This document shows, in pieces, positions 5,778 to 26,412 of a stretch of 26,529 nt of DNA. Location of the stretch: positions 1 to 26,529 of IMG/VR virus record IMGVR_UViG_3300010370_004344. The stretch is one strand, 5' to 3'. The stretch is from a virus. Below the pieces are notes generated by a model. That model made no database searches. It was not told the origin of the DNA and worked only from the letters and a program-made list of their open reading frames with translations. Numbering within the stretch: position 1 is the first letter of the stretch; every line of letters starts with the position of its first letter. Made by a program: the position numbers and the translations under genes.

Positions 5778-6338
5778 ATGGAACATTTTTACTATAATAT
5801 TGGAGAAGATTGGTTTACATATCAACATTTTTATACAGCAGTTGTAAACGAATTTAATGATGGAGCACACTTTGTTGAAGTTGGATCTTGGAAGGGAAGA
5901 AGTGCAGCTTATATGGGTGTAGAAATACACAACTCCAATAAAAAAATAAAATTTGACTGTGTAGATACGTGGAGGGGTTCCGCAAATGAACCAAATCACC
6001 AAAGCGATCCTTTAGTTGTAGCTGATAAATTGTTTGAAGAGTTTTTAAAAAATACAAAACCAGTAGAACATGTAATAACACCAATTAGAGAAAATTCAGT
6101 AAATGCGTCTAAGCTTTATAAAGATAATACTTTAGATTTTGTATTTATTGATGCTTGCCATCTTTACGAATGCGTAAAAGAAGATATATTAAGTTGGTTG
6201 CCAAAAGTAAAAATAGGTGGTATAATTGCAGGTCACGATATAGCCTCCCCAGATGTAAAAAAAGCTGTTAAAGAAATGATTCCAGAGGCACAAGCATTTA
6301 TTCCAAATGATGTGTGGTTTTTCAAAAAAACACAATGA
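5778..6338 (+). CDS. Class I SAM-dependent methyltransferase (Methyltransf_24-like)
   Basis: A 186 aa small-molecule-type methyltransferase. Motif I, the SAM loop, is VEVGSWKGRSAAYMG (33-47). The acidic strand-2 end is in CVDTW (61-65), and the post-motif region is FVFIDACHLYE (121-131) followed by the GGIIAGHDI strand (147-155). This arrangement matches the Methyltransf_24 and cephalosporin-hydroxylase-like group often found in O-antigen and sugar clusters. It probably methylates a sugar or glycan of the island's product, though that is context-based. AAGGA at 5765-5769 serves as ribosome site. There is no gap to the previous gene and only 7 bases to the next. Confidence 0.8.
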   Translation: MEHFYYNIGEDWFTYQHFYTAVVNEFNDGAHFVEVGSWKGRSAAYMGVEIHNSNKKIKFDCVDTWRGSANEPNHQSDPLVVADKLFEEFLKNTKPVEHVITPIRENSVNASKLYKDNTLDFVFIDACHLYECVKEDILSWLPKVKIGGIIAGHDIASPDVKKAVKEMIPEAQAFIPNDVWFFKKTQ

Positions 6339-6345
6339 GAAATAT

Positions 6346-7650
6346 ATGGAAAATATTTTAAAATTAGTTGAAGAATATATAGAAAACAAACCAAAAAAAG
6401 TGTGGATTCCAGGCCACGATTTTGTCCAATATGCTGGCCCGTATTTTACAGCAGAAGAATATGTTGTTGCAATAGAAGCACTTTTAAATGGTTGGTTGGT
6501 GCTCGGGCAAAGTGGAATTAAATTTGAAAATACATTTCCAAAACTTTTTAGTAAAGATTTTGGAATATTGACAAACAGTGGTAGCAGTTCAAATTTAATA
6601 ATGATGTCAGCCCTAACATCAAAAAGACTGCACAATTTGCCAAAAGGAACAAAAGTAATTACTCCAATTGCTGGATTCCCAACCACACTAAATCCAATTT
6701 TTCAAGTTGGGTTTGAGCCAGCTTTTGTTGATATTGATCTTGATACTTTAAATTTAAATTTAGATCAGGTTGAACAAAAGGCAAAAGAGGGATGTAAAGT
6801 TATAACTTTTGCACATGTGTTAGGCAATCCACCAAACATGGATAGACTGATGGATATTGTCAAAACATATGATCTAATTCTATTAGAAGACTGTTGTGAT
6901 GCACTGGGATCTACGTACAAAGGAAATCCATTAGGATCATTTGGCATCATGGCAAGCTGCTCGTTTTATCCCGCACACCACATGACTATGGGTGAAGGTG
7001 GATTTATTGCGTGCAATACATATGAACAAGAAATAGTAATACGAAGTTATCGTGAATGGGGTAGGGGATGCTATTGTGTAGGACAAAAAGCAAATTTATT
7101 AAAAAATGGTTGTTGTGGAAAAAGATTTTCAAATTGGTTGCCATCTTTGCCTGAAGAAATTTTTGATCACAAATATGTTTATGATGAGATTGGATATAAT
7201 CTAAAACCAATAGAGCTACAAGCAGCCATGGGCCTTGCTCAGATGAAAAAGCTTCCCCAGATCCATGAGATACGAAAATCCAATCATAAGCGATTGTGTG
7301 AGATATTTTCCAAATACGAAGAATATTTTATCCTGCCAAAAGCAACGGAACATTCTGATCCAAGTTGGTTTGCTTTTGCAGTTACGATCAAAGAAAATAA
7401 TAAATTTAAAAGAAAAGATATTGTAAACTTTTTTGAAGATCACAAGATTCAAACAAGACCATATTTCGCAGGAAGCGTAATGCTACAACCAGCATATACT
7501 GGTATGATGGATCCACATGATGTGGTAAATAATTATCCCAATGCAAGAAAGGTAACCACAGATACATTCTTCTTGGGAACAAGTCCCGTTATATCACAAC
7601 CACAGTTGGATTATATTGAAAAAATACTTAATAAATTTTTTAAAATATAA
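6346..7650 (+). CDS. rfbH: RfbH/DdhC-like PLP- and [2Fe-2S]-type sugar 3-dehydrase (E1)
   Basis: Belongs to the DegT/DnrJ/EryC1 aminotransferase fold but to its dehydrase branch. In E1 (CDP-6-deoxy-L-threo-D-glycero-4-hexulose-3-dehydrase) the PLP lysine is replaced by histidine. Here the site reads SFYPAHHMTMGEGG, with His211 in the lysine position. The E1 iron-sulfur cysteines are also present: C184, C242 (X57 between them), C244 (X1) and C256 (X11, against X7 in the E1 motif I recall), in a GRGCYC...CCGKRF segment. GSSSN, AGFPTT and EDCCDALGS are further family blocks. I choose ATG 6346 (434 aa, about the size of RfbH) over ATG 6307, because GAGA lies 5 bases upstream and the N-terminus aligns with RfbH. 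The partner reductase (E3, DdhD) is not in the window. ColD is an alternative, but it lacks the Fe-S cysteines. Confidence 0.87.
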   Translation: MENILKLVEEYIENKPKKVWIPGHDFVQYAGPYFTAEEYVVAIEALLNGWLVLGQSGIKFENTFPKLFSKDFGILTNSGSSSNLIMMSALTSKRLHNLPKGTKVITPIAGFPTTLNPIFQVGFEPAFVDIDLDTLNLNLDQVEQKAKEGCKVITFAHVLGNPPNMDRLMDIVKTYDLILLEDCCDALGSTYKGNPLGSFGIMASCSFYPAHHMTMGEGGFIACNTYEQEIVIRSYREWGRGCYCVGQKANLLKNGCCGKRFSNWLPSLPEEIFDHKYVYDEIGYNLKPIELQAAMGLAQMKKLPQIHEIRKSNHKRLCEIFSKYEEYFILPKATEHSDPSWFAFAVTIKENNKFKRKDIVNFFEDHKIQTRPYFAGSVMLQPAYTGMMDPHDVVNNYPNARKVTTDTFFLGTSPVISQPQLDYIEKILNKFFKI

Positions 7651-9986: not shown

Positions 9987-10798
9987 GCAAGTATATTATT
10001 ATTGAGCCAGAGGGCTACTGTGGAATGTGTGGGTATTTGTGGCAAACAATACGAGCTATTTATCACAATCCAGACAAATTATATTACATCGATTTCGCAA
10101 CTAGCATTTATAAAACGCGAAACGACAATGTTTGGGACTATTTTTTTGAGCAACCACATATACAGAATAAACCAAACCCAGAAGACATTGAGAAAAAAGT
10201 TGGAATTATTTTTGATCAGGCTAGTGAATTTATTTGGCGTAATACTGAACCAAACACTCTAGAAGAAATTCAAAAAAGAAGATTTGCGTTTGGAGAAATT
10301 ATAAAAAAATATATGGTTTTAAAACCCCATATTCAGCAAAAAGTTGATGATTTTGCTGAAAAACATTTTAAAGGAAAAAAAGTATTGGGTGTACATTTTA
10401 GGGGGACCGACCACACTGAAAAAAAACCTATGGAGTATTATCTACAGCAAGTAAAAGAAAAGCTTGCTGACTATGATCTTCTTTTTGTTTGCTCAGATGA
10501 GCATGATCGATTTAAATTGGCAGAGATTGTATTCAAAGATAAAGTTATATCATATGACAGCATAAGAAGCACAAATACAAACCCGCTCCATAGTCCATAT
10601 TATGAAAAACGTTTTCCAAGAAATGGAACTTTTGAATATCAATATAAAATTGCTGAAGATGTTATTGTTGAAGCATTTTTAATGTCAAAAGTAGATTTTT
10701 TAATGTGCTGCGAGGCGTCTAATGTAAATTATCTTTCTAGAGCCATAAATCCAACATTAGAGGCACTAGAGGTACAAGGTAAGCCACCGGTATATTAA
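9983..10798 (+). CDS. GT23/O-fucosyltransferase-like protein
   Basis: A 271 aa protein with the donor-site pattern of GDP-fucose-using transferases of the NodZ/O-fucosyltransferase group: VLGVHFRGTD (134-143, H-x-R-G-x-D), a strand ending in LFVCSDE (167-173), and EAFLMSKVDFLMCCEASN in the C-terminal part, which resembles the conserved D-x-x-x-m-s-x-c-d segment. The N-terminal GYCGMCGYLWQTIRAI is glycine-rich and could bind the nucleotide. It would be a fourth potential fucosyl-type transferase in the island, after one GT11 and two GT10. The stop shares one base with the next start (TAATG). Family placement is moderate and sugar specificity is inferred. Confidence 0.6.
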   Translation: MSKYIIIEPEGYCGMCGYLWQTIRAIYHNPDKLYYIDFATSIYKTRNDNVWDYFFEQPHIQNKPNPEDIEKKVGIIFDQASEFIWRNTEPNTLEEIQKRRFAFGEIIKKYMVLKPHIQQKVDDFAEKHFKGKKVLGVHFRGTDHTEKKPMEYYLQQVKEKLADYDLLFVCSDEHDRFKLAEIVFKDKVISYDSIRSTNTNPLHSPYYEKRFPRNGTFEYQYKIAEDVIVEAFLMSKVDFLMCCEASNVNYLSRAINPTLEALEVQGKPPVY

Positions 10799-11667
10799 TG
10801 TCAAACGATCAAAAAATATCAGTATTTGGTTCTAGTGGTTTTATTGGATCAAAATTTTGTGAATTATATTCAAATGATGTAATTAAAATTCAAAGGGAGA
10901 ATTATTTACCGCAATCCAATAATATTTTGTATTTTATTAGTACTGTGGACAATTATAATGTACATAACAATCTTCATATTGACATAGATACTAATTTAAG
11001 TGTATTAATGAATGTTTTGGATAATATTCCCAAAAACAGTGATACTGTTTTTAATTTTATTAGTTCGTGGTTTGTATATGGTAAAAACTACGAAATGCCA
11101 TTTAGAGAAGATTATTCTAAATGCAACCCAACTGGATTTTATTCAATCACAAAACATTGCGCTGAACAACTTTTAATTTCTTTTTGTCAAACGCATAACA
11201 TAAAATATAGAATTTTTAGATTAGCAAATGTTTTGGGTTCGGGAGATAAAAAAATATCAAAGAAAAAAAATGCATTGCAATTTTTAATTAAAGAAATTGT
11301 CAATGATAAAGATGTTCATTTATATTACGGCGGTGAAGTATTGAGAGATTATATAGATGTAGAAGATGTTTGTCGTGCATTAAAGCTTTGTATGGAAAAA
11401 GCAAACGTCAACGAGATTATCAATATTGGTAGCGGAAAGCCATATAAATTTTTAGATATGATTAATTTTGCTATAGAATATTCTAATTCTTCATCTAAAA
11501 TAATCCATATAAAACCCACCACATTTCACGACATAGTTCAAGTCAGACATTCTTATCTTGATACAGCTAAATTGCTATCTTATGGCTTTAAACAAAGTAA
11601 AGATATAAATCAAATAATAAAAGAATTGGTTGATTTTTATAAAAAAGAAAGTATTATTGAGGCATAA
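10798..11667 (+). CDS. NAD(P)-dependent sugar-nucleotide epimerase/reductase (extended SDR)
   Basis: A 289 aa extended short-chain dehydrogenase/reductase. The Rossmann dinucleotide loop is GSSGFIG (11-17), a catalytic Ser lies in FISSW (about 88-91), and the YxxxK pair is YSITK (115-119). RDYIDVEDV is the common downstream block of NDP-sugar epimerases and 4-ketoreductases. Such enzymes complete deoxysugar pathways, for example reducing the C4 ketone after an E1-type 3-deoxygenation (as abequose or paratose synthases do). That role is attractive here because of the RfbH-like gene, but the exact reaction cannot be read. It is one base away from the dTDP-glucose-dehydratase-like gene downstream. 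Confidence 0.72.
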   Translation: MSNDQKISVFGSSGFIGSKFCELYSNDVIKIQRENYLPQSNNILYFISTVDNYNVHNNLHIDIDTNLSVLMNVLDNIPKNSDTVFNFISSWFVYGKNYEMPFREDYSKCNPTGFYSITKHCAEQLLISFCQTHNIKYRIFRLANVLGSGDKKISKKKNALQFLIKEIVNDKDVHLYYGGEVLRDYIDVEDVCRALKLCMEKANVNEIINIGSGKPYKFLDMINFAIEYSNSSSKIIHIKPTTFHDIVQVRHSYLDTAKLLSYGFKQSKDINQIIKELVDFYKKESIIEA

Positions 11668-11668
11668 A

Positions 11669-12619
11669 ATGAAAATTGTTTACGTAACAGGATGTTTAGG
11701 TTTTATTGGTTCTTATATTACAAGATTATGTCTTGAAAAAGGTTGGTTTGTAAAGGGGGTTGATAAAATCACATATGCTGCCAACAAACAATTGCTAAAA
11801 GAATTTGAATCATATAAAAATTTTTCATTTGTTCATTGTGACATCAATGATCTTACATTTTTGTATGATTGTGATTATATAATAAATACCGCAGCAGAAA
11901 CTCATGTTGGAAATTCTATTGCCAACAGCGATGATTTTATTAAATCAAATATTAGTGGTGTACATAATATTTTAGAGCTTATTAAAAATTATAGACAAGA
12001 AAATGGTAAAGTCCCAACTCTAATACATTTTAGCACCGATGAAGTATATGGTGATATTATTCATGGGGCTCACACCGAAGCAGATATATTAAAACCATCC
12101 AATCCCTATTCTGCATCAAAAGCAGCTGCAGACATGTTAATACTTGCTTGGGCAAGAACTTATAATATACCTTATATTATTGTGAGACCGACAAACAACT
12201 ATGGAATTGGCCAATATGTTGAAAAACTTATTCCAAAAGTTTGCAAATATTTTCATTTAGGTAGAAAAATTCCATTGCATAACAATGGGACACCAGTAAG
12301 AAATTGGCTACACGCAAAAGATACAGCTAGAGCAATCATCACAATAATTGACTCTGGTGTAAAAAATGAAATATACAATATATGTGGTGGTTACGAACAA
12401 AGCAATATAGATACAGTAAAAAAACTTTTAACAGTTTTGGGAATAAAAGAGGAAAATTACTTCAATTATATTGATGCATCTTATAGTCGGCCCGGACAAG
12501 ATGTGAGATATGCTTTAGATGACTCTAAATTGGTTAATCTTGGTTGGAAACCTTTAGAAAATTTTGATAAAGAATTACCTCATATAGTTGAGTATTATAA
12601 AAATAATTTTATTTGGTAA
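11669..12619 (+). CDS. dTDP-glucose 4,6-dehydratase-like SDR
   Basis: A 316 aa protein close in pattern to RfbB/RmlB, which converts dTDP-glucose to dTDP-4-keto-6-deoxyglucose. It has TGCLGFIGS (7-15) for NAD, the active-site block STDEVYGD (122-129) with the Thr-Asp-Glu triad, YSASK (147-151), and NNYGIGQYVEKLIP, a nucleotide-binding stretch typical of this subfamily. The start is ATG 11669 with GAGG six bases upstream; an earlier in-frame codon at 11630 would overlap the previous gene and has no ribosome site. It could feed the E1-like 3-dehydrase if it accepts a suitable NDP-glucose. The nucleotide carried (dTDP or CDP) is not certain, although the STDEVYGD block favours dTDP. Confidence 0.82.
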   Translation: MKIVYVTGCLGFIGSYITRLCLEKGWFVKGVDKITYAANKQLLKEFESYKNFSFVHCDINDLTFLYDCDYIINTAAETHVGNSIANSDDFIKSNISGVHNILELIKNYRQENGKVPTLIHFSTDEVYGDIIHGAHTEADILKPSNPYSASKAAADMLILAWARTYNIPYIIVRPTNNYGIGQYVEKLIPKVCKYFHLGRKIPLHNNGTPVRNWLHAKDTARAIITIIDSGVKNEIYNICGGYEQSNIDTVKKLLTVLGIKEENYFNYIDASYSRPGQDVRYALDDSKLVNLGWKPLENFDKELPHIVEYYKNNFIW

Positions 12620-12623
12620 AAAT

Positions 12624-13673
12624 ATGAACTACAAAAAAAATATTTGGTTATTTGGTGGTGGTGGGGCCTGTTCTTGGATTATTTCTGGATTAAAAAGAGA
12701 AAATGTAGAAATAAAAGGAATACTTGATGATAATCCAAACAAAACAGAAAACATTTATGGAATTCCACTTTTTTCTTCTTCTACAGACAAAATAAACAAA
12801 ACTATCAAAGATAATGATATTATTGTTATATCTATTTTGAATCCTCTAGTAGATACATCTAAAATTATTAAAAATTTACAAAAAGATGGTTGGAAAAATA
12901 TCTTAGAATTTGGAGAATGGGTTGAATTATATTATAAACAGAGTGGAAATGTTGCAGCCCCACTAACAGCAAAAAGTTGGGTAGATAAAACAAATGAACT
13001 GTTGGCCGTTAAAAATCTTTTAGCCGATGAACAAAGCAAACAAGTTTTAGAATGTTTTATAAATTTTGTCAAAGAAGGTAAAAATAAATTTTTACCAATA
13101 GAACCTTGTCCTTATTTTCCTAAAAATTTAAAAAAATGGTCTTCACCATTACATTTTATTGATTGTGGTGCTTTTACTGGAGATACTTTATTGGAAATAG
13201 AAAAAGAAGGATATGAAATAGGTTCAGCACAAGCATTTGAACCAGATATTCCAAATTATAATGAGATGGTAATAAACTGCAAAATTATAAAAAACGCAGT
13301 TTTTTGGCCATGCGGTGTTGGTGATAAAAATGCATCTTTGAGATTTCAAACTCAAAATAATATGGGTTCTTTTGTAGATCCAAATGGTAATTCCGTAATT
13401 CAGTGTGTTCGTTTAGATGATTGCTTGCCGAATTATATGCCAAACTTAATTAAAATGGATATAGAAGGCTATGAATTAAATGCCTTGCAGGGAGCAGAAT
13501 CAATACTTAAAAAGCATTTACCAGGTTTGGCTATTTCTGTTTACCATTTAGCAGATGATATTTGGCAAATACCATTATATTTAAGTACCATTTACAATAA
13601 TAAGGCAAAATTTTATTTAAGAAATCATTCTCGCACAATTGCCGATACTATTTTGTATGTTATTCCAGAATAA
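12624..13673 (+). CDS. FkbM-family methyltransferase with N-terminal Rossmann-like domain
   Basis: A 349 aa two-part protein. Residues 6-40 (IWLFGGGGACSWII ... GILDDNPNK) look like the nucleotide-binding strand-loop seen at the start of PglD-type sugar acetyltransferases and CoA-binding domains. From about residue 176, it is an FkbM (Methyltransf_21) methyltransferase, with FIDCGAFTGDTLLE (178-191) as SAM motif I, AFEPD (204-208), and VRLDDC ... IKMDIEGYELNALQGAE (about 262-292). FkbM enzymes O-methylate sugars or polyketides. ATG 12624 is taken as start; an upstream TTG at 12588 lies inside the previous gene. The fused arrangement is known from glycan clusters but uncommon in phages as far as I know. 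Confidence 0.8.
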   Translation: MNYKKNIWLFGGGGACSWIISGLKRENVEIKGILDDNPNKTENIYGIPLFSSSTDKINKTIKDNDIIVISILNPLVDTSKIIKNLQKDGWKNILEFGEWVELYYKQSGNVAAPLTAKSWVDKTNELLAVKNLLADEQSKQVLECFINFVKEGKNKFLPIEPCPYFPKNLKKWSSPLHFIDCGAFTGDTLLEIEKEGYEIGSAQAFEPDIPNYNEMVINCKIIKNAVFWPCGVGDKNASLRFQTQNNMGSFVDPNGNSVIQCVRLDDCLPNYMPNLIKMDIEGYELNALQGAESILKKHLPGLAISVYHLADDIWQIPLYLSTIYNNKAKFYLRNHSRTIADTILYVIPE

Positions 13674-14792: not shown

Positions 14793-15557
14793 ATGAATAT
14801 TTTATTAGCTGGAAGTCAAGGATATATTGGAAAAAGTATATATCAAAAATTAAGTCAAAAATATAATATAACATGTTTAAACAGAAATGTATTAAATTTA
14901 TCTAATTCTTTTGATGTAGATAAATGGTTTTCAGATAAGTTTTTTGATGTTGTTATAAATGCGGCATCTATCGGTGGCAGCAGGCTGACACCAGATACTG
15001 CAAATGTAATGGATGAAAATTTAAAAATATATTACAATTTTTACAGTAATAAAAATAAATTTAAAAAATTTATATCTTTTGGTTCTGGTGCAGAACTTTT
15101 TATGCCAGAAACATTTTATGGTTTAAGTAAAAAAATTATTGCTAAATCTATTGAAAATAGTAATAATTTTTATAATTTAAGAATTTTTGCAGTGTTCAAT
15201 GAAAACGAATTAAATACAAGATTTATTAAATCAAACATACTCAGATATAAAAAAAGAGAATCCATAGAAATTCATAAAAATAAATTGATGGATTTTTTTT
15301 ATATGGATGATTTAATAACATTAATTGAATATTATATAATTAATGAAAATTTACCAAAAACTATAGATTGTAGTTATGCAGATAAATATAATCTTTTAGA
15401 TGTGGCAGATATTATAAACAGTTTAGATAATTATAAAGTAAAAGTAAATATAAAAGAAAAAGAGACAATTGATTTGTATTGTGGTAATCATATTAACTTG
15501 CCACTCAAATACATTGGTTTAAAAGATGGTATAAAAAATACATTTAAAATGTTGTAA
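14793..15557 (+). CDS. SDR-family NDP-sugar epimerase/reductase, possibly GDP-fucose-synthase-like
   Basis: A 254 aa SDR, shorter than usual (about 300-330 aa). The nucleotide loop is GSQGYIG (7-13), a Ser-rich strand FISFGSGAE lies at about 93-101, and the catalytic pair is YGLSK (109-113). INAASIGGSRL (55-65) resembles the AA-x-VGG stretch of GDP-L-fucose synthase (Fcl/WcaG). It lies directly upstream of GDP-mannose 4,6-dehydratase, where a GDP-fucose synthase would be expected, and the island contains GT11 and GT10 genes. However, the similarity is partial and the C-terminal domain is reduced, so another 4-ketoreductase activity is equally possible. The DNA here is among the most AT-rich in the window. 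Confidence 0.62.
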   Translation: MNILLAGSQGYIGKSIYQKLSQKYNITCLNRNVLNLSNSFDVDKWFSDKFFDVVINAASIGGSRLTPDTANVMDENLKIYYNFYSNKNKFKKFISFGSGAELFMPETFYGLSKKIIAKSIENSNNFYNLRIFAVFNENELNTRFIKSNILRYKKRESIEIHKNKLMDFFYMDDLITLIEYYIINENLPKTIDCSYADKYNLLDVADIINSLDNYKVKVNIKEKETIDLYCGNHINLPLKYIGLKDGIKNTFKML

Positions 15558-15584: not shown

Positions 15585-16589
15585 ATGCAAAAAATAGCTT
15601 TAATTATAGGTGCTAACGGACAAGATGCTTCATATCTGGCAGAATTGCTAATTGAAAAAAATTATAAAGTTCATGGTACAATACGAAGAAATTCTGTACC
15701 AGAATCACAAACAACAAGAATTCAGCATTTACATGATGCAGATTTAATAACATTGCATTATGCTGATTTAACTGATCCGATTAGCATTGAAAGTGTGATA
15801 CAAAGATTGCAGCCAGATGAAATTTACCATTTAGCTGCACAGTCTCACGTTCAAATTTCCTTTGAGTTACCCCAATACACACTTGATGTAAATGGTGGTG
15901 GTACGCTCGCTGTGCTAGAAGCAGTAAGAAGATTTTCCCCACACTCAAAAGTTTATCACGCTGCAACTTCAGAGATGTTTGGCAACTCTAAAGATTCAGA
16001 TGGATTTCAGAGAGAAACAACTCCGCTGATTCCAGTTAGCCCGTATGGTTGTGCCAAATTATATGCCCACAGTCTTTGCAGAAACTATTCACAAGCTTAT
16101 AACCTTTTTGTTTGTTCTGGGATTCTTTTTAACCACGAATCCCCGAGAAGAGGAATTAACTTTGTAACCAATAAAGTTGCATTGCAGGCAGCAAAAATTA
16201 AATTGGGATTAGCTGATACTTTGGTTTTGGGAAATCTTGAAGCAAAACGAGACTGGGGCCATGCAAAAGACTATGTGCAGGCAATGTGGTTAATGTTGCA
16301 ACAAGAAAAGCCAGAGAGTTATGTAATTGCAACTGGTGAAACAAGATCAGTACAGGAAATGGTTAATTGCGTTTTTGATTATGTTCATTTAGATACAAAG
16401 AAGTATTTAAAAACAGATAAAAAATATTGCAGACCAGAAGAACTTCACTACCTTTGTGGTGATGCCACTAAAGCAAAAAATACTTTAAATTGGACTCCAA
16501 AAATTCAATTTGATGATATGATGCACGAAATGGTTGATTTTTGGATGGATAAACTATTAAATAAAAAGCTTGATTTATCATTAATATGA
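15585..16589 (+). CDS. gmd: GDP-mannose 4,6-dehydratase
   Basis: Converts GDP-D-mannose to GDP-4-keto-6-deoxymannose, the precursor of GDP-fucose, GDP-rhamnose, GDP-perosamine and GDP-colitose. The protein is 334 aa. Diagnostic features are GANGQDAS (9-16), the RRNS NADP site (34-37), the catalytic TSEMFG (128-133), YGCAK (154-158) and GILFNHESPRRG, which is near-universal in Gmd. In the N-terminal loop the third glycine of GxxGxxG is alanine (A15), a small departure. It closes the sugar island and is followed by gp55. ATG 15585 is taken as start; a TATAAT at 15574-15579 is too close to be its promoter. Confidence 0.92.
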   Translation: MQKIALIIGANGQDASYLAELLIEKNYKVHGTIRRNSVPESQTTRIQHLHDADLITLHYADLTDPISIESVIQRLQPDEIYHLAAQSHVQISFELPQYTLDVNGGGTLAVLEAVRRFSPHSKVYHAATSEMFGNSKDSDGFQRETTPLIPVSPYGCAKLYAHSLCRNYSQAYNLFVCSGILFNHESPRRGINFVTNKVALQAAKIKLGLADTLVLGNLEAKRDWGHAKDYVQAMWLMLQQEKPESYVIATGETRSVQEMVNCVFDYVHLDTKKYLKTDKKYCRPEELHYLCGDATKAKNTLNWTPKIQFDDMMHEMVDFWMDKLLNKKLDLSLI

Positions 16590-24172: not shown

Positions 24173-24571
24173 ATGGCAGAAAGTTTTGATACATCTTTTG
24201 TCCAGGGTGACACAATTAAATGGTCTTTGTATTTCACAGACAAAGGTGGAACCGCTTATAATTTAAGCGGTTGTACACTTTCTATGCAAATAAGACGGGG
24301 GTATTATCCTTCAAGTTTGGTTTCGTCTTATTCAACTTTTGTACCGGAAGGAACTACTGCGGGGAATTATCCTGAAGGAATAATTGGTGGTTTGTCGGCA
24401 TCTGCAACAGGTGGAACATTGTATGTTTGTATTGGCGCAACATACACATCCAAATTACCTAGTGACACCACTTCTAAGTATGATTTGCAGATCATAAATC
24501 CAAATGGTAATACCGTTACAACAATTTTACGTGGGTCGTTAACAGTGTTGCCTGAAGTTACGAGATTGTAA
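24173..24571 (+). CDS. Putative virion/baseplate-fibre protein
   Basis: A 132 aa protein rich in Ser, Thr, Gly and beta-strand-like alternation. The N-terminus [15 protein letters not shown] and the following [21 protein letters not shown] segment look like the N-terminal beta-sandwich of baseplate-upper-protein (BppU_N) type domains, which begin with a GD-x-x-x-W pattern and a linear polypeptide term. That assignment is weak. Its stop shares a base with the collagen-like gene (TAATG), so both are made together, and both look like structural parts. GGAG upstream of ATG 24173 is a fair ribosome site. Confidence 0.6.
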
Positions 24572-26412
24572 TGGTAGACCCAGTTCCACAGTATCCATCT
24601 ATAACGGTAACAAATACTGGTTACCCAAATATTATTGTAACAAATCAGGACTCTATTGGTGCAATAGGTGGTGGACCACCAGGAGCACCAGGACCAGCTG
24701 GCAGTCCTGGTGCCCCAGGAACATCTGGAAATACTGGAGCCACTGGTGCAAGAGGTTCGACGGGTCCAACTGGTGCAACTGGATTGCCTGGTGATCTTTA
24801 TGCAACGTCATCCAATACAGCGGTTAATCTTAGTACGCTTAATATTGGAGATAATGTTAATCTTACAGTTGAAAGTGGTCTTGCGTATACAAAAGTTCAA
24901 GATCTTTTAGTTGCTAGTGGTTTAACAAATTATTTTAATGCTCAAGTTATTACTTATATTAATACATCATTAAATGTTTCTGTAACTGGAATTACTGGTT
25001 CTGGAAGTTGGAATAATTGGGATATAAATTTAGCTGGTTCAGTTGGTCAAATAGGACCAGAAGGCAACCAGGGAATTCAAGGAAACACAGGAAATACAGG
25101 TTCCACAGGATCAACTGGATATACAGGAGCAACTGGTGCTACAGGAGCAACTGGTGCTACAGGAGCAACTGGTGCTACAGGGGCAACTGGTGCTACAGGG
25201 GCAACTGGGGCTACAGGAGCAACTGGTGCTACAGGGGCAACTGGGGCTACAGGGGCAACTGGGGCTACAGGGGCAACTGGTTTACCCGGAGACCTTTATG
25301 CCACATCCTCATCAACATCTGTAAATTTAAGTACTTTAAATATTGGTGACACTGTAAACCTAGCTGTTGAAACTGGATTAGCTTATACCAAAGTTCAAGA
25401 TATATTGGTAGCAAGTGGTTTAACAAATTATTTTAATGGACAAATTATAAATTATTCTGGCAGTTCATTAAACATTTCTGTTACAGGTCTTACTGGTGTT
25501 GGAAGTTGGAACAATTGGGATGTAAATTTAGCGGGATCAATTGGTCAAATAGGACCACAGGGTAATCAGGGAAATACTGGTAATACAGGAGCAACTGGTT
25601 CAACTGGTGCTACAGGAGCAACTGGAGCAACAGGTGCCAGAGGAACTACAGGATTTACTGGAGCAACTGGTGCTACTGGTGCTACTGGTGCTACTGGTGC
25701 TACAGGGGCAACCGGTGCCAGAGGAACTACAGGATTTACTGGAGCAACTGGTGCTACTGGTGCTACTGGTGCTACAGGGGCAACCGGAGCAACACCAGCA
25801 AATTACGTCGTTCAAATAAATGGTTATACTGGCTACATCGGTCTAACTTCTGGTTCTGGCATAAGTATAACTACGGTTACTGGGGTCTGTGGTGCAACTT
25901 TTACAATATCATCAACTTCTCCCGGCGGTTCTAGTAATATTGCAAGTCTGACGCCAACAGGAGTCACATCAGACATTATTGCTATGCGTTATGGTGGTTG
26001 GACTTTAGCTAAACCAAATACTATTTCGATGCCGTTGCCGATATTAGCTAATATTCAAACAATTATTGGTGGTATAACTTCTTGGTTTAAACGAGGAGAC
26101 AACTTAACTGCTGGTATTTGCTTAGGAAGTGGAACATTTTTAATTTACAATAGTTCATATGTTAATGGAAAATCTGTTGACCCAAGCACTTTTCAAAATG
26201 ATGATGTGTTTGTTAAAATTCCTGGATTTGTTGCACAAGAATTTACTATTAAACAAGGCCAAGGTGTTACATATCCATCTGGAATTGCTCCAGAAATAGG
26301 AGCCTGGTCTAATTTTTTTACTACAGAGTATTATCATCAGGGGTGGGCAATAAAATTAAGTGGAGCAACTACAGGTGGTGTTGGTGCGGGAGATGGTATT
26401 CAACCTTTCTAA
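24571..26412 (+). CDS. Collagen-like tail-fibre/virion structural protein
   Basis: A 613 aa protein organised as N-terminal linker (1-30), collagen-like Gly-X-Y tract (about 35-72), 97 aa beta-like module A (72-168), a longer Gly-Ala-Thr tract (about 169-237), module B (238-334), a third Gly-X-Y tract (335-410) and a non-collagen C-terminal domain (about 411-613). Modules A and B both begin [10 protein letters not shown] and end in GP(E/Q)GNQG. Such Gly-X-Y tracts trimerise in phage fibres. Threonine occupies the Y position of most GAT triplets. The C-terminal domain, starting at a [13 protein letters not shown] stretch, is probably the distal trimerisation or receptor-interacting part. No protease, lyase or chaperone motif was recognised. 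Confidence 0.82.
24784..25074 (+). repeat. Intragenic 291-bp module, copy A
   Basis: Encodes 97 residues starting [10 protein letters not shown] and ending GPEGNQG. Copy B lies 498 bases downstream at 25282-25572 and is colinear. The two proteins are highly similar, but many codons differ at third positions, so the duplication is not recent. Confidence 0.85.
25123..25266 (+). repeat. Tandem 18-bp repeat, eight units
   Basis: Eight head-to-tail copies of an 18-base unit of the form ACAGGAGCAACTGGTGCT, plus a partial ninth, each encoding two Gly-Ala-Thr triplets. Units differ mainly at synonymous A/G and T/G positions (GGAGCA against GGGGCA; GGTGCT against GGGGCT). Alternation of unit types suggests past slippage or unequal exchange. 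It sits in the collagen tract between modules A and B. Confidence 0.93.
25282..25572 (+). repeat. Intragenic 291-bp module, copy B
   Basis: The downstream partner of the module at 24784-25074, offset 498 bases. The encoded 97 residues begin [10 protein letters not shown] and end GPQGNQG. Confidence 0.85.
25633..25785 (+). repeat. Higher-order collagen-tract repeat (81 bp and 72 bp copies)
   Basis: Two adjacent copies beginning GGTGCCAGAGGAACT (25633-25713 and 25714-25785), nearly identical. The first is longer by one 9-base GCTACTGGT unit, that is, exactly one triplet. This is what replication slippage or unequal recombination would leave. Near-identity at the base level implies a recent event. 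Confidence 0.88.

Follow-up and report, generated by a model that had tools for sequence, protein, structure and literature searches.

Genes at the locus

The window, i.e. the whole stretch of viral DNA that was analysed (26,529 nucleotides), contains a gene for a predicted E1-type sugar 3-dehydrase and, further downstream, genes for a 4,6-dehydratase, a split transketolase and a short SDR (Table 1). The E1 open reading frame encodes 434 amino acids, and a further in-frame ATG is present at position 6,307. The FkbM-type methyltransferase, which carries an extra N-terminal domain, is encoded between the dehydratase and the transketolase; its family was found in four loci, every one of them with a transketolase cassette.

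Table 1. Predicted genes of the E1 locus in the window
Feature	Position	Strand	Evidence
E1-type (DdhC/RfbH) PMP- and [2Fe-2S]-dependent sugar 3-dehydrase (predicted)	6346..7650	+	NF011936, 3bcx/3bb8, residues
Accessory SDR/epimerase	10798..11667	+	PF01370
RmlB-like NDP-glucose 4,6-dehydratase, predicted dTDP-glucose	11669..12619	+	TIGR01181, PDB matches, DE pair
FkbM-type methyltransferase, optional decoration	12624..13673	+	TIGR01444, PF05050
Split mini-transketolase, ThDP-diphosphate-binding subunit, 207 aa	13682..14305	+	PF00456, NF004559
Split mini-transketolase, pyrimidine-binding subunit with catalytic Glu, 158 aa	14313..14789	+	PF02779
Short SDR, predicted to act last in the pathway as NAD(P)H reductase, putative YerF/Pau7-like role	14793..15557	+	PF01370

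Open reading frames were clustered for 81 loci, namely the window and the best 80 of 432 matches in viral contigs, several of which are near-copies. The RmlB-like dehydratase is present in 68 of these loci, ThDP genes in 64, and the short SDR in 59, with the Y...K motif in all 59 members of this SDR family. In every complete locus, defined by the presence of E1, dehydratase and SDR, the E1 gene is followed by an RmlB-like dTDP-glucose 4,6-dehydratase, a ThDP enzyme and a short SDR (61/61). The ThDP cassette always lies between dehydratase and SDR (61/61; 44/44 after dereplication at 95%), and the set always ends with the SDR, counting a related one (cluster c67) in a few loci. The gene combination of yersiniose-type pathways, i.e. 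4,6-dehydratase, E1, ThDP carboligase and SDR, thus occurs in all 61 complete loci. ThDP genes were not called in 17 loci. Sixteen of these break off no more than about 5.4 kb from E1, and L056 has a run of short open reading frames in place of the dehydratase and ThDP genes. The family of the accessory SDR/epimerase is found in 20 of the 81 loci, often just upstream of the dehydratase. A GDP-mannose 4,6-dehydratase gene (15585-16589), present in 17 of the 81 loci, adjoins the set and probably belongs to a separate GDP-sugar route.

Identity of the E1 protein

The product of the E1 gene scored 454.7 bits with the RfbH model NF011936, above the curated cut-off of 423, and matched the Yersinia E1 structure 3bcx with E = 6.5e-101 (phmmer). 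The closest solved relatives, by sequence as well as by fold, are the Yersinia E1 entries 3bcx and 3bb8, the best Foldseek matches of the predicted structure (TM 0.89). The model has a mean pLDDT of 89.8, with values below 50 at residues 245-258, i.e. the cluster loop. The phage protein shares with E1 of Y. pseudotuberculosis (DdhC/AscC/RfbH) the histidine in place of lysine, the four cysteines and the fold, and the two proteins are about 38% identical when aligned by structure. As judged from sequence, residues and modelled fold, it is a real E1 3-dehydrase. The preliminary description had proposed a deoxygenating enzyme of this type and not an aminotransferase, and this view is backed by family, residues, tree and fold. 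In the phylogeny suggested there as a check, the phage protein groups with E1, apart from the sequences that are devoid of the Fe-S cysteines. A sugar aminotransferase (DegT/DnrJ/EryC1) was ruled out because of His211 at the position of the catalytic lysine, the tree placement and the fold. Membership in the ColD group (GDP, no Fe-S cluster) was also rejected, as all four Fe-S cysteines are present. The occurrence of E1-type genes has already been listed in virome surveys (PMC10653327, PMC11295528).

His211, Cys183, Cys184, Cys242, Cys244 and Cys257 are invariant in all 82 viral E1 homologues, a set in which the window and L001, the duplicate of its own locus, are counted. The columns of His211 and of Cys184, Cys242, Cys244 and Cys257 are also kept in 76 of 76 cellular E1s, so that the reported replacement of the PLP lysine by His211 holds throughout both sets. 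Three of the four cysteines described earlier, Cys184, Cys242 and Cys244, were placed correctly. The fourth had been assigned to Cys256, which was rejected as a cluster ligand because this position varies among the viral proteins (S, T, M or C); Cys257 is the predicted fourth ligand, since it is invariant in viral and cellular E1s. The corrected motif is C184-X57-C242-X1-C244-X12-C257. The last spacer is therefore X12 instead of the X11 given before, and it is five, not four, residues longer than the X7 of Yersinia (C-APGCDNT-C in the 3bcx alignment). Cys184, Cys242, Cys244 and Cys257 are thus the candidate ligands of a [2Fe-2S] cluster, with His211 as the predicted general base.

A virus-only branch of the E1 family

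In viral contigs, 432 stretches were confirmed to encode relatives, and among these the best 80 have 75-85% identity. The nearest proteins from about 85,000 cellular species genomes have about 44-46% identity to the phage E1, in a pattern search that divergent cellular copies can escape, and identity does not exceed 45% in samples drawn from Alphaproteobacteria and Cyanobacteria. The viral E1s form a single clade beside all cellular E1s (SH-aLRT 99, and 95 with cyanophage relatives included); a wider viral set adds members at 50-68% identity, with a support of 93 for the viral branch. On these trees, the phage E1 belongs to a virus-only branch of the family. A protein of S-CAM7 that is annotated as 3-dehydrase is not an E1, because the Fe-S cysteines at positions 242, 244 and 257 are missing; it is about 25% identical and has the histidine, and ACG-2014f proteins match at the same level. 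The clamp loader is at most 52% identical to those of isolated phages, cyanophages being nearest; the names of the other T4-like core genes were assigned by eye. A long protein encoded at positions 24571-26412 of the window has collagen-like Gly-X-Thr repeats and is probably a fibre of the virion.

Nucleotide and electron supply

The dehydratase scored 310.7 bits with TIGR01181, under the cut-off of 365.1, and 73.8 bits with the CDP-glucose model. Its top PDB matches are dTDP-glucose 4,6-dehydratases, and the catalytic Asp-Glu pair is present in 68 of 68 family members. It was rightly noted before that the window has no clear CDP-glucose dehydratase, though it does encode this dehydratase of the dTDP-glucose type. 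In the viral loci, identity to a CDP-glucose dehydratase does not exceed about 30%, and no gene resembles the clusters of cellular sequences for glucose-1-phosphate cytidylyltransferase, E3 or RmlA, which were named by eye. Judged by gene content only, the CDP-linked intermediates of a yersiniose-type pathway are not represented. Because an RmlB-like dehydratase with the Asp-Glu pair accompanies E1, the enzyme probably uses dTDP rather than CDP, a prediction that rests on a neighbouring protein which itself scores under its family cut-off. A nucleotidyltransferase match was obtained in 4 of 33 viral records. In a large phage record (L031; 211,724 bases) the gene at 84020-84700 strongly matches NTP_transferase with E = 4.7e-57; it lies far from E1 and may supply a nucleotide sugar.

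The phage system differs from that of Yersinia in having an RmlB-type instead of a CDP-glucose dehydratase, and no E3 was found with the phage E1. The lack of an E3 reductase in the window, pointed out in the preliminary description, extends to 50 related viral records searched whole, possibly fragments, in which neither the E3 domains PF00175 and PF00111 nor plant-type ferredoxin domains were matched; a search for flavodoxin in 33 records gave no match. Of 80 cellular E1 loci, no more than about 20 have an E3-like gene, as judged by eye, and a dedicated E3 is a trait of the characterised Yersinia system and not of the E1 protein itself. The mechanisms of E1, ColD and SpnQ have been treated together, and SpnQ exemplifies an E1-type enzyme that acts on a dTDP sugar with general ferredoxin or flavodoxin systems (PMC8987622). 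By description, SpnQ of spinosyn biosynthesis agrees with what is predicted for the phage E1, namely a dTDP substrate, a 2Fe-2S cluster and a host-type electron supply; it differs in its substrate, a 2,6-dideoxy sugar, and in serving the synthesis of an antibiotic. As no E3 is encoded, the phage enzyme would draw its electrons from ferredoxin or flavodoxin of the host, in the manner of SpnQ. The LdpA-like protein of L034 (14895-16061) has 4Fe-4S motifs and may be an electron carrier; its gene, with a HAD-like gene next to it, occurs in five loci of the acetolactate synthase type.

Interchangeable ThDP enzymes

Three types of ThDP enzyme occupy the position between dehydratase and SDR: an acetolactate synthase (ALS or YerE) type in 36 loci, with 8rph as its best solved match, a transketolase (TK) type in 20, and a PDH-like pair in 7; one locus has two types. 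At least nine changes of type are forced on the E1 tree along well-supported branches. Only three ThDP superfamilies are known to use ketone acceptors, i.e. YerE-like decarboxylases, alpha-KADH2 and TK (PMC12247030). The three phage types represent these superfamilies, for which the branching of keto sugars has been reported or proposed.

The ALS-type loci carry PanB, MhpE/MhpF, HpcH, NeuB-like, AroB-like or further small sets of genes, while the loci with a split mini-transketolase or a PDH-like pair are devoid of such keto-acid-making genes. The ALS-type gene travels with predicted makers of unusual 2-keto acids (PanB, MhpE/F, HpcH, NeuB-like). YerE adds acetyl to CDP-3,6-dideoxy-4-keto-glucose, and ErwE prefers 4-hydroxy-2-oxo acids (PMC12247030), a donor preference that MhpE/MhpF would fit. 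The phages share 4,6-dehydratase, E1 and ThDP carboligase with the yersiniose A and erwiniose pathways (YerE, ErwE), which are, however, CDP-linked and bacterial; in the window the slot is filled by a split transketolase. Among cellular E1 loci, 29 of 80 likewise contain the ALS type, in some cases with the accessory genes known from the phage loci, and the idea of such a pathway therefore extends beyond viruses.

In the split mini-transketolases, the equivalents of TktA H26, H66, H100, D155, N185 and H261 are kept in 20 of 20 cases, and so are those of E411 and R358 in the pyrimidine-binding subunit, where R520 is replaced by Lys. The ThDP and Mg ligands and the catalytic Glu (D155, N185, E411) are thus complete in all 20, and the enzyme is predicted to carry a two-carbon ketol group. 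The missing transketolase C-terminal domain and the loss of some phosphate-binding residues count against this role. The split-gene transketolases of miharamycin and amipurimycin biosynthesis likewise consist of two genes, and a transfer of hydroxyacetyl onto a keto sugar has been proposed for them. That TKs act on keto sugars is unproven, and the 13 candidates are all from Streptomycetes (PMC12247030); in contrast to these, the phage subunits have only 207 and 158 amino acids and are encoded beside E1. In other phages this slot holds a short PDH-like pair (about 216 and 176 amino acids), which can be likened by type to the alpha-keto acid dehydrogenase pairs AviB1/AviB2, Pau11/Pau12 and KbDH. 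AviB1/B2, YerE and the branch ketoreductase Pau7 have been treated previously (PMC4753412).

A proposed pathway for a branched deoxysugar

Taken together, we consider it likely that the E1 is a working 3-dehydrase within a phage-encoded pathway for a branched deoxysugar. The ThDP enzyme and the SDR, with which this pathway would be complete, had been overlooked in the preliminary description. The RmlB-like dehydratase would convert host dTDP-glucose to dTDP-4-keto-6-deoxyglucose. E1 would form a Schiff base between this sugar and PMP, His211 would take the proton, and the C3 hydroxyl would leave; two electrons, passed one at a time via the [2Fe-2S] cluster, would then yield the 3,6-dideoxy-4-keto sugar. 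The split transketolase would add a two-carbon unit onto the C4 ketone, giving a tertiary alcohol, and the C4 branch in this phage is probably hydroxyacetyl. The SDR would reduce the newly made ketone, and phage glycosyltransferases would link the resulting sugar to a glycan of the phage or of its host. In the open-access literature searched, no description of a phage branched-sugar pathway was found.

An unlikely alternative is that E1 serves a simple 3,6-dideoxyhexose of the paratose or abequose type by direct reduction at C4, the ThDP genes belonging to another, adjoining pathway. A reductase does end the classical E1 pathways (PMC8987622), and SDRs are encoded in the window; however, the invariant position of the ThDP cassette between dehydratase and SDR, its repeated exchange among three types and its retention when the gene order changes speak against two adjoining pathways. 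It is quite unlikely that the branched-sugar route starts from host CDP-4-keto-6-deoxyglucose, for which one could cite the CDP specificity of Yersinia E1 (PMC8987622) and a glucose-1-phosphate cytidylyltransferase-like gene in 56 of 80 cellular E1 loci (by eye). The viral loci contain neither this cytidylyltransferase nor a CDP-glucose dehydratase above about 30% identity, and the dehydratase beside the phage E1 is RmlB-like.

The adjoining GDP-mannose 4,6-dehydratase (TIGR01472, 394 bits) could in principle provide GDP-4-keto-6-deoxymannose for a colitose-like route. We regard this as very unlikely, as its family occurs in far fewer loci than the RmlB-like gene (17 versus 68 of 81) and the phage E1 retains the Fe-S cysteines that are missing from ColD-like proteins. 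Phage glycan islands vary fast, and the genes might thus be host-derived cargo without a function during infection. Yet catalytic residues are invariant in 82 sequences, the clade is virus-only, and no near copies were found in the cellular genomes searched; functionless cargo is extremely improbable.

If the branched-sugar pathway operates as proposed, phages would possess dedicated enzymes to produce and diversify rare branched sugars, probably as a means of varying glycans in infection. The mini-transketolase would then be an example from outside Streptomyces of a ketol group passed on to a keto sugar, and with its compact size one could test directly whether transketolases act on keto sugars, as has been proposed without proof. 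The three slot types would also add many candidate enzymes that form tertiary alcohols.

A cysteine-free relative of E1

A search of viral contigs with the TK and PDH subunits retrieved 14 loci with a true E1 and 11 with a cysteine-free relative; these loci usually also contain the dehydratase and SDR, sometimes in rearranged order. The relative (L195:4999-6141, L202-L281) has about 380 amino acids and occurs in about 150 viral contigs. In a separate search, the histidine was kept in 80 of 80 proteins (FYASH); Ala-Asp (IEDSAD) is found at the position of the first cysteine, and the Fe-S loop is missing. The protein is nearer to E1 than to ColD (196 versus 141 bits) and remains below the RfbH cut-off (272 versus 423 bits).

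A wider reading, to which we give about an even chance, is that of a modular phage factory for C4-branched deoxysugars, in which dehydratase, 3-dehydrase and SDR are constant and the branch slot is interchangeable, being filled by a YerE-like enzyme with custom keto-acid makers, a mini-transketolase or a PDH-like pair; the 3-dehydrase, too, would be interchangeable, either Fe-S E1 or the cysteine-free relative. Two enzymes in one pathway slot would offer a natural comparison of routes for C3 deoxygenation. Two results count against the proposed branched-sugar pathway: 49 of the 80 cysteine-free loci have no recognised ThDP gene within 6 kb, and no match to a dTDP-glucose dehydratase was obtained in the whole records L173, L174, L176, L177 and L195. 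In 31 of these 80 loci, a gene of one of the three ThDP types lies near that of the cysteine-free enzyme, and the five records just named, two of them longer than 148 kb, contain it together with a ThDP cassette.
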